Source: Candidatus Gastranaerophilales bacterium (GTDB lineage Bacteria; Cyanobacteriota; Vampirovibrionia; Gastranaerophilales; Gastranaerophilaceae). From it: a DNA stretch of 64,000 nt. The first letter of the stretch is position 1. Every line of letters begins with the position of its first letter. The notes below the pieces were generated by a model that saw only the letters and a program-made list of their open reading frames with translations, was not told the origin of the DNA and did not search any database. Shown here piece by piece: positions 17,188 through 24,501 of the stretch. The position numbers were made by a program, and so were the translations under genes. The DNA is taken from NCBI GenBank assembly GCA_944325885.1, contig CALVBT010000004.1:124001-188000 (forward strand), in the 5' to 3' direction.

Positions 17188-18075
17188 ATGTTTGATTTTA
17201 AACTTTTCTTAAATCCGGTCATACTGGCTATTTTAGTTCTATTCATCGGCGTTCTCGGGTATTTTATTGCAAAAGTAAAATACATAAACAAATCTCTTGT
17301 TTCGCTCACAAAGGTGCTACATTCCTTCAAAAAAGGGAATATTGTATACAGATTCAAGGAGCTTGATGATATTTTTTCAAACAACCCTTTTATTTCAAAC
17401 TACTGGGTTGAGTTTAAAAACACACTTGTTTTTAACGAAGGCATTTCAATAAACGGAGCAAAAACAGACGCCTCTGCAATACAGTGTACAATAGATGCAA
17501 GTTACTTTTTTAATGAAGAAACTCTTGTAAACAGCAAACTAAACTACAAATTTATCTCGGCTGTACCTACAATATTGACGGGTCTTGGGCCTTTATTTAC
17601 TTTTCTGCACATTTCAATAGCATTTTCAAAAGTTAATTTTGCCACACAAGAAGCAACTATTGCCTCTGTGTCCTCACTGCTCGCCTCTATGAAAATAGCA
17701 GCAATGATTTCTGTAGTAGCGGTCGGAACGTCTATTCTGTTTATGATTGTAGAAAGAATTTTGTACAAAAACATGTGCAAAACTCCGCTGAATGCTTTTC
17801 AGCTGGAATTAAACAAACTCTTTGACAGCATTACGTCAGAAAAATTTCTTGTAGAACTTTTAAAAGAATCAAAAATCCAGAACAACGCACTGAATCAGGC
17901 TTTCCAGACCCTGCCCGTACAGATAAAAGCAGCTTTTGACAAGAGTTTGAAAGAAAGTCTTGTGCCTTATCTTGATAATTTGATTTTTTCTGTAAACAAA
18001 TTGCAGGAAAACATAAAAAAACAAGACTCAAAAGGTCTTTTGGATGACCTGTTCGGAAATAATGACGAAGAATAA
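17188..18075 (+). CDS. ZorA-like MotA/TolQ/ExbB-family proton channel protein
   Basis: A 295-residue inner membrane protein. It has one N-terminal membrane segment (about residues 9-30), a cytoplasmic stretch, then two segments (about 122-147 and 163-188) joined by a short periplasmic loop. The second segment contains PTILTGLGPLFTFL, closely resembling the pore helix of ZorA. The C-terminal about 100 residues are helical and form only a short tail, whereas ZorA of Zorya defence systems has a long tail. AACAGGAAG precedes the ATG. The partner gene starts 4 bases after its stop. A stator unit of unknown purpose fits; flagellar MotA is less likely because MotA has four membrane segments. Confidence 0.75.
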   Translation: MFDFKLFLNPVILAILVLFIGVLGYFIAKVKYINKSLVSLTKVLHSFKKGNIVYRFKELDDIFSNNPFISNYWVEFKNTLVFNEGISINGAKTDASAIQCTIDASYFFNEETLVNSKLNYKFISAVPTILTGLGPLFTFLHISIAFSKVNFATQEATIASVSSLLASMKIAAMISVVAVGTSILFMIVERILYKNMCKTPLNAFQLELNKLFDSITSEKFLVELLKESKIQNNALNQAFQTLPVQIKAAFDKSLKESLVPYLDNLIFSVNKLQENIKKQDSKGLLDDLFGNNDEE

Positions 18076-18078
18076 ACT

Positions 18079-18768
18079 ATGAAATATATAAAATACAAAA
18101 CAGACGCACAGGGCGGAGATGATAATGTTTTCTGGGTTACAATGAGCGACCTTTTACTCGGTCTTGTTGTAGTGTTTCTTGTGCTGTTTGTTTTTGCCAT
18201 TACAGGGTTTACACAGAACAAAGTCAACGAACAGGAAAAACAGTACGAAGTAACCGAAAAAATTGCAAAAGAGCTACAAAAAAACAATATAAAAGCAGAA
18301 GCTGACAAATTTTCCGGAACAATAAAAATCTCTGACCTCGAATTGTTTGCGCTGAACAGCGCAGAGTTGTCCCCGAAGGGAAAAGCCTATATGTCAAAGT
18401 TTGTGCCGGTATATCTTAACACCATAATGAAAGACGAAAAAATAAAAGAAAATATAACCAGAATCATAATAGAAGGCCACACAGACTCACAGACCTTTGC
18501 CGGTGCAAAAACAGAAGAAGAAAAATACTTTAAAAATATGGATTTGAGCCTTAGACGTGCCTCTGCTGTTGCACAGTATATAGTCTTTTCCAACTATTCA
18601 GGCAAAGAAAAATACGAAAAAGACCTGTTCAAACTCCTGTCTGTAGAAGGCAAAGGCCCCTCAGAACCTGTCTTTGTAAACGGAAAAGAAGACTATGCAA
18701 AAAGCAGACGTGTTGAACTAAAGCTTGTTTTTAAAGACAAAAGCATACTAGATGCCATTAAAAAATAG
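18079..18768 (+). CDS. ZorB-like / MotB-like OmpA-domain protein
   Basis: A 229-residue partner of the preceding channel protein. A single N-terminal membrane segment (about residues 24-43) starts with Asp24 in VTMSDLLLGLVVVFLVLF, the position of the proton-carrying Asp of MotB and ZorB. The periplasmic part is an OmpA-like peptidoglycan-binding domain with IIIEGHTDS (132-137), LSLRRASAVAQYI and SRRVELKLV. Together the two genes would form a peptidoglycan-anchored, ion-driven 5:2 stator. No ZorC, ZorD or ZorE gene follows. Confidence 0.78.
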   Translation: MKYIKYKTDAQGGDDNVFWVTMSDLLLGLVVVFLVLFVFAITGFTQNKVNEQEKQYEVTEKIAKELQKNNIKAEADKFSGTIKISDLELFALNSAELSPKGKAYMSKFVPVYLNTIMKDEKIKENITRIIIEGHTDSQTFAGAKTEEEKYFKNMDLSLRRASAVAQYIVFSNYSGKEKYEKDLFKLLSVEGKGPSEPVFVNGKEDYAKSRRVELKLVFKDKSILDAIKK

Positions 18769-18873: not shown

Positions 18874-18901
18874 TAAAGTTCATTAAACTGTTAGCCGATA
18901 A
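18874..18901 (+). promoter_or_regulatory. Sigma-28 (FliA/SigD)-type promoter
   Basis: TAAAGTTC at 18874 is followed by an exact GCCGATAA at 18894-18901, with 16 bases between TAAA and GCCGATAA. The known consensus is TAAA-N14 to 16-GCCGATAA. It lies 34 bases upstream of the small gene at 18936. Confidence 0.75.
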
Positions 18902-18935: not shown

Positions 18936-19316
18936 ATGTCAAACGAAATTAACAGAATTGGTATCAACACAGGTGCAGTAAACCCTTACGGAAATCAGGC
19001 AAAAGGCAGCGAAGCAAAACCGGAAGAAAACAAACCCGAAGTACAAAACAATGCACCGAAAAACCCATCGGTAAAACCTGATGATGTTTTAACATATATG
19101 GCAAATTCGGCAGTAGTAATAAACCCGAAAGCCGCACAAAAGACTTATGACGTAGCAAAATATGTTACTCCGGAACAAGCACAAAGAATTGCCGGATTTG
19201 TAACAAGCTTTGAAGATCAGGTAGCAAAAGGCCTGCTCGCAATCAATGGTATGGACGAACTTGCAGGATTGTCCGACAAAGCAAAATATGAAATTGCAGC
19301 CAATATGGTTGTTTAA
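18936..19316 (+). CDS. Small protein under a flagellar-type promoter, FlgM-like N-terminus
   Basis: A 126-residue soluble protein. The N-terminus NEINRIGINTGAVNPYGNQ resembles the start of Gram-positive FlgM (MKINxxGxxxVNPYxK). A Pro/Glu-rich linker follows, then a helical C-terminal half (TPEQAQRIAGFV, then KAKYEIAANMVV). FlgM is the anti-sigma-28 factor and is itself transcribed from a sigma-28 promoter, as appears to be so here. The C-terminal half is not a clear FlgM match, so this is a hypothesis. CAGGAGAAG precedes the ATG. Confidence 0.7.
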   Translation: MSNEINRIGINTGAVNPYGNQAKGSEAKPEENKPEVQNNAPKNPSVKPDDVLTYMANSAVVINPKAAQKTYDVAKYVTPEQAQRIAGFVTSFEDQVAKGLLAINGMDELAGLSDKAKYEIAANMVV

Positions 19317-21509: not shown

Positions 21510-24356
21510 CTAATCCTTACCCACCCTCCAGCGGAATCCTGCTGTAAGGGATACACCGTTTCGGCCTCCGTTATGCACCATGGCCTGTCCGTATGCTGTG
21601 AATCTATCGTCCTTAAAGCATTTCTGTATACCTGCTCCGTATGACACATACGGGTCGATGGACATGGATGGCAGTCTTACGTCGTTTGCTGTTACTTTTG
21701 TTTCATCCAGTATATTCCATGTCATATTTACTGCGAGATATGGCTGCCATCCGTTCTTTGTATTCATTATGAATTTTATTCCGGGGGAGAGTTGGAGTGC
21801 ATGCAACGGGTCACTTTCGATTCTTACGTTTGCTGCGTTTGTATAGTCGAAAGTATTTATGAAGGAATAGGACATTAAGAAGTTGGGTTGGAGTATATAT
21901 TTTCCTTGTTTAAATTCAAAGTTATACCCGAATTTATTACCTATACCTGCCATGAGCATAGTATAGTTTTCTGAGCCGTACATGGTAGTTGCATCGCCTA
22001 CGCTTGCTCCTACTGAGAGGGTGGTTGCGTTAAAGAAGTTACCTTTGTAGAAGGTAGTAGTTGTGCCGAGGATACCGCCGTTTTGGTAGGCATCTACGCC
22101 TTGATATCTTTGGGAAGCACCGTTGTAACCAATATATGCAGTTAAGACTCTATTGAAGCCGTGATTAATTTGTTTAATATCGGAGTCATAGCCTATGAGG
22201 GTGCCGTAGTTGATATTGGAGACGGTTGGGCCGTTATTGAGGGGGATAGACTCGAAGGAGGCGTAGGGTTTAACCCAGAATCCGTTGTGGGAGTGTGGGG
22301 TAAGGAGTGGGGAGAAGTTTGTTGTATTTAGTGCATATTTATTGTTATTGATGATAGATAGTCTATCTAAAGAGGGGATATTCATGAAGGAGTCTGAGTG
22401 TTGGAAGGCGTAGTTAAAGGTTTGGAGCTGGGTAGTATATGCGCCTGCCTGGGTGGCTACTGATGGGGTAAGGACAGCGGGGTTGAAGGCATCTGACTGG
22501 TTGCCTGAGGAAGAGGATGCTCTATTGAAGAAGAAGTAGCCGAGGTTATCTTCGGGGTTAGTAGAATATGAGACGTCGTATTTATATATTGGTGAGTAGG
22601 CTATGGGGGAGGGGCCTGAGTAAGATACTTGATTAGAGTAAGAAGCATCAGCGAATTTAATAGAAGTAGAGTCAGAGGATGCATCGTTGAGGAGGTTGAG
22701 GTAGTTGACGGAGATATGGGCGTCTGGGGAGACAATAGTATTAGAGGGGAGGGTATCCATGGACTTGTTAGCTAAGTCGACATCAACAGCCATGTTTATA
22801 TTGCCGTTGATGTTGGCGGATTTCATGGATTGTTGTTCTGCGATATTGTTTATGAAGCCTAAAGAGCCTGAGTTAATGGTGAAGTCGGATTGTTCAAAGA
22901 CGTTGTTTTTGCCTAGGTTGAGGTTGATGTTATCTGAGGTTACTTTTGCGTTTATGACTGAGTTGTTGAGGTAGATGGAGCCTGAACTGTCGCCTGTGAG
23001 GGCGAGGTCAAAGGCTGTTTCAGGGGTTTCGATTATTTGCATAGAGTCGCCGTCTATTGCGCCGCCACGGATTGTGTCATCAAAGACTATTACGCCGTTG
23101 TTTACGGCTTTGAGTGTTAAAGAGGCAGGGTTTTTGTCTAACTGAGTACCTGTTAACGGGTCTGAAAATACATATTTGTCGTCTTGTTTTTCGACAAGGC
23201 CATACATGCCGATTGCGTTTTGTTCTTCTGTTCCGTTTGAGATTGTTTTGTTACCGGAGAAGACGGATTGAGCGTTGTCTGCTGTGATATTTAGGTGGGA
23301 TGTACTAAATATTGCACCGCCTATTGCTGTTCCGTTTGTTGATTCTGCGTAGTTACCTATGAATGAGGAATTTTTAATTTCGCCGTAGGTGATTTCTTGT
23401 GTATCCAGGTTAATAGAGCCGATTATGCCCATATTCCAAATCGCAGCGCCCATGGCAATGCCGTTTGTGGATTTTGCGTAGTTACCAATAAAGTCGCCTG
23501 TTATGTTTCCGATTGTGCCTGCATTATAAATCGCTCCGCCTTCGGCACCATTTTCAGATTTTGCATAGTTGCCTATGAAATCTCCTGTTATGTTTCCGAT
23601 TGTTCCATATACATTATAAATCGCTCCGCCAAAGGCATAGTTATTTTCAGATTTTGCATAGTTGCCTATGAAATCTCCGGTTATATTGCCGATTGTTCCT
23701 CCATTAGCAATCGCTCCGCCTAAGGCCGCATTATTAGAAGAAGAAGTAAAAGCATAGTTACCGATGAAATCGCCTGTTATATCTCCGATTGTTCCTTTTT
23801 CATTATAAATCGCTCCGCCATAGACATAAGAAGATGACTCAACTTTCAACCCTACAAAATCCATATCTATATCAGCACCATTTTGGTCGGTTGTGATTCG
23901 GTCAGGGGATAGACGGTCATTGTTTACATAGTAGTTGATTTCGTATTCAAAGGCATTGCCGGTATTGTCGGCGTTTGGCGTGGTTACTGTGAAAGTTTTT
24001 ACTTCGTCATAATCTGTTGTATGGCCATAGTCTGTTTGTTTTAAATCCACACGATAATACACGGGAATGAGTTTGTTATCTGTTTCGCTCCATTCGTATT
24101 TTGTAATTGTATTAGCAGGAAGGTTAGAGGGGTCTTGGACTTCTATTTTTGTAAGAGTATATGCGTGGTCATCTGCCGGTTCCTGAGAAAAAGCAGGGAG
24201 CACGGATGAAAAAGAAAGAGCAAGGGAAAGAGTCAAAGTAAGGGTCAACGAACAGGCGAAATGCTTTGTTTTTAGCGGTTTATACCCCCCCCCCGAAAGG
24301 CTAAAAGCATTGTTACGAGCGGGTTTTGGCACCATTTCAATATTATTTACTTCCAT
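21510..24356 (-). CDS. Autotransporter with right-handed beta-helix passenger
   Basis: A 948-residue type V secreted or surface protein. It has a long N-region followed by a hydrophobic signal (LTLTLTLSLALSFSSVLPAFSQ, ending about residue 60), an extended-signal-peptide-like arrangement. The passenger contains five repeats of about 30 residues with the core GDFIGNYAKS / GGAIYN, typical of polymorphic-outer-membrane or pertactin-like beta-helices. The last about 280 residues (from GFWVKPYASFE) form the beta-barrel, ending TAGFRWRVGKD. The ATG at 24356 has GAGGAT at 8 bases; the ATG at 24362 sits too close to it. A G10 tract in the coding strand lies within the N-region, and a C/T-rich coding stretch (about 22230-22990) differs from the rest. 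Confidence 0.88.
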   Translation of the reverse strand: MEVNNIEMVPKPARNNAFSLSGGGYKPLKTKHFACSLTLTLTLSLALSFSSVLPAFSQEPADDHAYTLTKIEVQDPSNLPANTITKYEWSETDNKLIPVYYRVDLKQTDYGHTTDYDEVKTFTVTTPNADNTGNAFEYEINYYVNNDRLSPDRITTDQNGADIDMDFVGLKVESSSYVYGGAIYNEKGTIGDITGDFIGNYAFTSSSNNAALGGAIANGGTIGNITGDFIGNYAKSENNYAFGGAIYNVYGTIGNITGDFIGNYAKSENGAEGGAIYNAGTIGNITGDFIGNYAKSTNGIAMGAAIWNMGIIGSINLDTQEITYGEIKNSSFIGNYAESTNGTAIGGAIFSTSHLNITADNAQSVFSGNKTISNGTEEQNAIGMYGLVEKQDDKYVFSDPLTGTQLDKNPASLTLKAVNNGVIVFDDTIRGGAIDGDSMQIIETPETAFDLALTGDSSGSIYLNNSVINAKVTSDNINLNLGKNNVFEQSDFTINSGSLGFINNIAEQQSMKSANINGNINMAVDVDLANKSMDTLPSNTIVSPDAHISVNYLNLLNDASSDSTSIKFADASYSNQVSYSGPSPIAYSPIYKYDVSYSTNPEDNLGYFFFNRASSSSGNQSDAFNPAVLTPSVATQAGAYTTQLQTFNYAFQHSDSFMNIPSLDRLSIINNNKYALNTTNFSPLLTPHSHNGFWVKPYASFESIPLNNGPTVSNINYGTLIGYDSDIKQINHGFNRVLTAYIGYNGASQRYQGVDAYQNGGILGTTTTFYKGNFFNATTLSVGASVGDATTMYGSENYTMLMAGIGNKFGYNFEFKQGKYILQPNFLMSYSFINTFDYTNAANVRIESDPLHALQLSPGIKFIMNTKNGWQPYLAVNMTWNILDETKVTANDVRLPSMSIDPYVSYGAGIQKCFKDDRFTAYGQAMVHNGGRNGVSLTAGFRWRVGKD
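23341..23830. repeat. Degenerate tandem repeats inside the autotransporter gene
   Basis: Five copies of an 87-129 base unit, recognisable by GC(A/G)TAGTT(G/A)CC at 23347, 23476, 23563, 23656 and 23752. Each encodes one GDFIGNYA...GGAIYN...IGNIT coil of the beta-helix. The middle three are nearly identical at the DNA level, so copy-number change by recombination is possible. Confidence 0.85.
24285..24294. repeat. Homopolymeric C10 tract (G10 in the autotransporter coding strand)
   Basis: Ten consecutive Cs, encoding Ser-Gly-Gly-Gly-Tyr about 22 codons after the autotransporter start and before its hydrophobic signal. I noticed no other poly-G/C run of this length in this AT-rich window. Length change by one base would shift the frame. 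Confidence 0.9.
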
Positions 24357-24501
24357 ACACATATCCTCTATTTTTTAATACTAATATTTTCTTAATCGGA
24401 TATGGTCTTATTTATCTTTAGGTTTTTCACAACTAAATTTACAAAAGTTTATAATTTTTCAAATTCACACTCTACTCAAAAGTTAACACCCCTTTTTGGA
24501 T

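Follow-up and report, generated by a model that had tools for sequence, protein, structure and literature searches.

The window analysed here is a stretch of 64,000 nucleotides from a genome of Candidatus Gastranaerophilales, in which two open reading frames on the forward strand, 3 nt apart, follow secA. The first, the zorA-like gene (17188..18075), encodes a 295-aa subunit of the three-helix MotA/TolQ type with a ZorA fold and a short cytoplasmic tail, and the second, the zorB-like gene (18079..18768), encodes a 229-aa protein with one N-terminal membrane helix and a periplasmic OmpA-type peptidoglycan-binding domain. An earlier sequence-only reading had placed a stator pair at 17188-18768 behind secA; both frames are exactly as it gave them, and the position of secA can be read off directly.

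The zorA product was matched by the PADLOC profile ZorA1 (E = 4e-28) over positions 16-240 of 663 only, which indicates that the core is present without the long tail. NCBIfam ZorA models matched it down to 3e-25, under their curated cut-offs; one of these, NF033915 (antiphage_ZorA_2), matched nearly all of the 295 aa (residues 13-288 on positions 5-278 of 383), though with a score of 88 against a curated cut-off of 100. The Pfam scan of this protein did not return MotA_ExbB (PF01618), and its closest PDB sequences were E. coli and Shewanella ZorA (8qyy/8qyd/8vvn). The predicted model (m291414279b50, pLDDT 75.7) has long membrane helices at residues 10-45, 120-147 and 154-211. Every Foldseek match to this model under E = 0.001 was a ZorA, the best by Foldseek and VIA being 8qyy, 8qyh, 8qyd, 8qyk and 8vvn, and among the families listed VIA-align gave Z scores of 16-17 for type I ZorA, 10.7 for TolQ and less than 8 for PomA/MotA. 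The motif PTILTGLGPLFTFL in TM2 (residues 127-140; 17566..17607, forward strand) aligns to LTGMGIIGTF of E. coli ZorA, and T131 and T138 occupy invariant alignment columns and are aligned with solved ZorA; these threonines may form a polar ring facing Asp24 of ZorB. E75 aligns to E. coli E86, at a site named as calcium-binding in the title of 8QYH, and the second Glu of that site (E89) is replaced by Asn in the window's protein.

The zorB product was matched by PADLOC ZorB1 over its full length (E = 8e-54); Pfam found OmpA in it (3e-11), with MotB_plug at E = 0.09, and its closest PDB sequences were Sulfuricurvum and E. coli ZorB (8vvi/8qyd). The ion-path aspartate Asp24 (codon 18148..18150, forward strand) is invariant in 25 aligned sequences and aligns to D24 of Shewanella ZorB. 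The OmpA domain (residues 89-206; 18343..18696, forward strand) was delimited by Pfam and contains the invariant residues H134 and R160; R210 and R211, directly past the domain, are likewise invariant and align with solved ZorB. Judged from the alignment, these four residues probably lie at the peptidoglycan site. Profiles, PDB sequences and predicted fold agree that the two proteins are members of the ZorA/ZorB family, ahead of MotAB, TolQR and ExbBD, so that the three-segment channel protein, the OmpA-domain partner with its proton-path Asp24 and the ZorAB affinity proposed from sequence all stand. The pair shares with TolQR and ExbBD the general 5:2 motor plan and the lack of a flagellar torque domain, but its partner subunit is an OmpA-type ZorB rather than ExbD or TolR, and its fold is far closer to ZorA (Z of 16-17 as opposed to about 10). 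It resembles MotAB and PomAB in having a B subunit with an OmpA-type peptidoglycan domain, but its A subunit is distant from theirs in fold and sequence, and it occurs independently of MotB. Both genes are under purifying selection (NG86 dN/dS of about 0.05-0.09, with dS saturated).

The tail, already described as short in the sequence-only reading, comprises about 80 residues in the model, several-fold fewer than in canonical ZorA. Residues 217-284 (17836..18039, forward strand), delimited from the predicted model and alignments to 8qyd and 8vvn, contain helices 217-241 and 244-278, the latter predicted with low confidence, and a variable linker. The linker is followed by the peptide LDDLF (residues 285-289; 18040..18054, forward strand), which the tail alignment shows to be conserved: an ending of the type D-x-[VL]-D-[DE]-L-F, behind a variable Lys/Gly/Ser-rich linker, was present in 96 of 103 unique ZorA tails (102 short and one canonical), with Phe as the very last residue in 72 of the 103. 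In the window's own genus LDDLF is followed by a further 4-7 residues, most of them acidic; as the peptide is then not at the extreme end, a strict C-terminal carboxylate clamp is less likely. A short conserved peptide placed behind a linker that varies has the appearance of a docking motif, and the peptide may resemble the CheY-binding ends of CheZ and FliM and TPR-binding EEVD ends.

A PADLOC scan of the neighbours of zorAB in the window revealed no Zorya effector (ZorC/ZorD, ZorE or ZorF/ZorG), in line with the earlier description of a stand-alone stator with no ZorC, ZorD or ZorE beside it; helicase and radical-SAM matches nearby look like generic family matches and were discarded as defence genes. 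The gene that follows the pair had been called sigma-28-type. Its 126-aa product (18936-19316) has no significant Pfam match, but an exact sigma-28-type promoter (TAAAGTT-N13-GCCGATAA, 0 mismatches) lies at 18874-18901, 35 nt ahead of the frame, which is probably a flagellar-regulon gene. A survey of related genomes, as had been proposed, showed that the neighbours of zorAB vary and that those identified are housekeeping genes rather than parts of a defence island; UvrC and GlgA were dismissed as partners for this reason. Downstream of zorB, a DUF711 gene is found in 13 genera (L031, L032, L034, L037, L039, L040, L042-L044, L047, L051, L053 and L054), frequently with its start overlapping the stop codon of zorB. 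At several loci a member of c2, an uncharacterised family of small proteins (about 105-170 aa) that is duplicated in places, comes next. Each occurs at about a dozen loci and both were rejected as partners: DUF711 is not beside zorAB in the window, and c2 is missing from the window's genome and from all but 7 of 59 relatives. Farther along the window, at 21510-24362, lies a gene whose repeat-rich product of 950 aa, with a start resembling a signal and a barrel-like region at the C-terminus, looks autotransporter-like by eye.

To describe the distribution of the pair, we searched related genomes, the own genus and a sample of the phylum. A single-sequence search found zorAB in 48 of 99 genomes, counting the window's own. 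Of 22 further genomes of the own genus 18 carried it, as did most of the family's genera. The phylum sample contained it in 136 of 386 genomes, all of one family, together with eight other matches that were weak, ZorA-type and in longer frames; elsewhere in the class only G063 and G068, two genomes of two further families, carried it. The pair is nearly core and vertically inherited in its family. The contig scan of relatives covered the best 80 of 286, all from this order, and short pairs may exist in other phyla. Trees that have no reliable root, and so give no direction to the earlier idea of an ancestor of the defence motor, placed the short pairs in a single clade separate from Zorya I, the complete system of G068 among it (support 96/98 for ZorA and 94/95 for ZorB). 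Plasmid matches to ZorA were all remote and Zorya-type (21-27% identity), and a search of a literature collection for stand-alone ZorAB found no paper.

One gene stood out among the neighbours in relatives. At 11 loci, in different genera of three families, a gene of about 1,100 aa, which we call c4-A, lies divergently upstream of zorA, with a small ORF in between at one of them; these loci include those of the isolated bearers G033, G063 and G068. In most genera c4-A is unlinked to zorAB, as it is in the window's genome (G000:C1, L195:5130-8636, reverse strand), where it is flanked by genes that appear from their sequences to be glutamate dehydrogenase-like and aconitase/LeuC-like and by a short unknown ORF. 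The earlier reading had named a conserved effector gene consistently linked in relatives as something that would count against it; this applies in part, through adjacency in 11 genera and co-inheritance almost without exception. Outside the own genus, every one of the 29 relatives with zorAB carried c4-A, compared with 0 of 47 that lack zorAB. The copy in G029 is diverged and has no zinc ribbons; its membership of the A clade comes from the tree. Across the 386 phylum genomes, 135 had both, 249 neither, one zorAB alone (G198) and one c4-A alone (G420), the c4-A frame of G420 containing a stop. Within the own genus, four genomes (85-94% complete) have c4-A and no detected zorA. Because c4-A was picked up through its adjacency to zorAB in some genera rather than by unbiased genome-wide profiling, further genes co-inherited with the pair may exist.

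The predicted structure of c4-A begins with zinc ribbons (residues 1-72, six CxxC half-sites), followed by a class-III-cyclase fold at residues 75-263 (CyaB Z 17.8, rmsd 2.7 A, 170 aligned), a STAND-type core at residues 312-749 (MalT Z 17.7, Apaf-1 Z 16.4) and a TPR superhelix from about residue 690 to 1168. The Foldseek list was headed by the STAND protein 6MFV, with Avs3 next. In its predicted STAND-type core and TPR superhelix c4-A resembles MalT, Apaf-1 and Avs3, but unlike them it has no P-loop, and it starts with zinc ribbons and a fold of the cyclase type in which the metal Asp is not conserved. The Walker A P-loop is lost in 29 of 29 c4-A sequences, whereas it is kept in all 19 sequences covering the site of the paralogue c4-B, which has zinc ribbons, an intact P-loop and TPRs and is found nearly throughout the order (e.g., L273 and L274). 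At what we take, relative to known cyclases, to be the metal-Asp position of cyclase motif 1, c4-A has D, E, K, T and other residues. With this position variable and the P-loop gone, c4-A gives the impression of a scaffold that is catalytically dead.

Collectively, these observations led us to two linked proposals. That the pair is a ZorAB-type, peptidoglycan-anchored rotary motor working outside Zorya defence, with its tail peptide coupled to the c4-A scaffold, is in our judgement an evenly balanced proposition. A little more tentatively, we suggest a previously undescribed three-protein machine, in which a short-tailed ZorAB and a pseudo-STAND/pseudo-cyclase TPR scaffold turn ion-driven rotation, or contact with peptidoglycan, into a signal in the cytoplasm, in a role unrelated to phage defence. 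ZorAB would assemble 5:2 in the inner membrane, with ZorB anchored to peptidoglycan, and ion flow past Asp24 of ZorB would make the ZorA pentamer rotate. Through the peptides at their ends, its five tails would dock on c4-A, probably on its TPR superhelix, so that rotation or stalling of the motor could be relayed to it. Because c4-A has lost the P-loop that c4-B keeps, it would act as a scaffold or adaptor and not as an ATPase. The likeliest output would be that the state of the cell envelope is sensed or handled.

The most serious competitor, which we regard as unlikely but not lightly dismissed, holds that zorAB is a housekeeping motor for envelope upkeep, and that c4-A is inherited vertically and was lost in the same lineages, with no physical link between them. 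The Fisher value for co-occurrence is 1e-103 and ignores descent; on a marker tree of FHIPEP, 2-3 of 5 independent contrasts were informative and none was opposed (sign test p 0.25-0.5). Independent gains and losses of zorAB and c4-A are few, and shared ancestry therefore accounts for much of their joint presence. The housekeeping account is further favoured by the separation of c4-A from zorAB in most genera and by the occurrence of its paralogue nearly throughout the order. However, this account sits poorly with the divergent adjacency in three families, including G033, G063 and G068, and with only 2 discordant genomes among 386. After removal of marker distances, the evolutionary rate of ZorA covaried most strongly with that of c4-A (r = 0.82, compared with 0.65 for ZorA/ZorB and 0.59 for ZorA/c4-B, all raised), and the loss of the P-loop is confined to the co-inherited paralogue; both findings argue for the coupling of ZorAB to c4-A, while the raised covariation of ZorA with c4-B counts against it.

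A defence system of new make-up, in which ZorAB senses a disturbance of the envelope by phage and c4-A relays the signal or acts as the effector, appears improbable. ZorAB is known from defence (PMC11890865), and the Foldseek list of c4-A, with a STAND protein first and then Avs3, would suit such a role. The short pair also shares with the type I systems of E. coli (8QYD) and Shewanella ANA-3 (8VVN) the ZorA core fold, the gene order zorA-zorB, and a ZorB with an ion-path Asp and an OmpA-type peptidoglycan domain. However, Zorya defence requires D24 and the peptidoglycan-site residues of ZorB (peptidoglycan binding) and the long ZorA tail (PMC11890865), and this tail is missing here: the short pair has about 80 residues with a conserved end peptide, compared with about 460-490 in Zorya type I. 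It also differs from type I in having no zorC or zorD, in being near-core and chromosomal, and in its co-inheritance with c4-A. The patchy distribution and defence-island setting typical of Zorya were not seen, the pair being vertically inherited among housekeeping neighbours, and c4-A has no visible nuclease or other effector domain, no P-loop and no match in a PADLOC search. An internal control is provided by G068, which contains both a short pair (L035) and, at L052:1663-8869, a complete Zorya I (ZorA of 542 aa, ZorB, ZorC and ZorD) adjoining genes that by sequence encode type I restriction, indicating that the two are different things. The genome-wide effector search, which covered ZorC and not ZorD, ZorE, ZorF or ZorG, found ZorC in one of 99 related genomes, namely in this separate Zorya I of G068, and an unlinked ZorC was discarded as the effector of the short pair. 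Although its chassis would work in the manner of Zorya's, we did not file the pair as a Zorya defence system, since it has neither the long tail nor effectors linked to it and is not set in a defence island; together with c4-A it has the appearance of a two-part machine in its own right rather than one that defends against phages.

The motility accessory role raised in the sequence-only reading, in which zorAB would be an accessory stator of the flagellum, found no backing and is in our view very improbable. The own genome encodes two MotAB-like pairs and FlhA, and the next gene downstream has the sigma-28-type promoter described above. However, no such promoter was found upstream of zorA, and the fold is distant from MotA. 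The order includes several known non-flagellated lineages (PMC4040986), and among the other genera of the family zorAB was present in 16 of 22 genomes without MotB and in 11 of 15 with it (Fisher p = 1.0); MotB is accordingly missing from 16 of the 27 pair-bearing genomes. That the pair is a decayed Zorya remnant, as the missing effectors and most of the tail might suggest, is hardly credible given frames intact in nearly all relatives, low dN/dS, a conserved tail end of its own and a single deep clade.

The preferred reading, a short ZorAB motor coupled to c4-A, touches on how the Zorya motor relays an envelope signal through its tail. With a naturally occurring motor whose tail is minimal and ends in a single conserved peptide, and for which there is one candidate partner, this transmission step becomes testable. 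If the reading is correct, the ZorAB chassis is not restricted to defence but has other tasks as well, and automatic annotation of such pairs as anti-phage ZorAB would be misleading.

Other motors and export genes of the window's genome were also recorded. In addition to the two MotAB-like pairs, the genome encodes one ExbB and two ExbD, located away from zorAB, and its only three OmpA-domain proteins are all B subunits, so no Pal was found in it. A second gene of the FHIPEP (FlhA/SctV) family occurs family-wide (e.g., G027:C11:299039-301015), including in genomes without MotB or flagellar-type FlhA, which suggests a separate export apparatus or a remnant.
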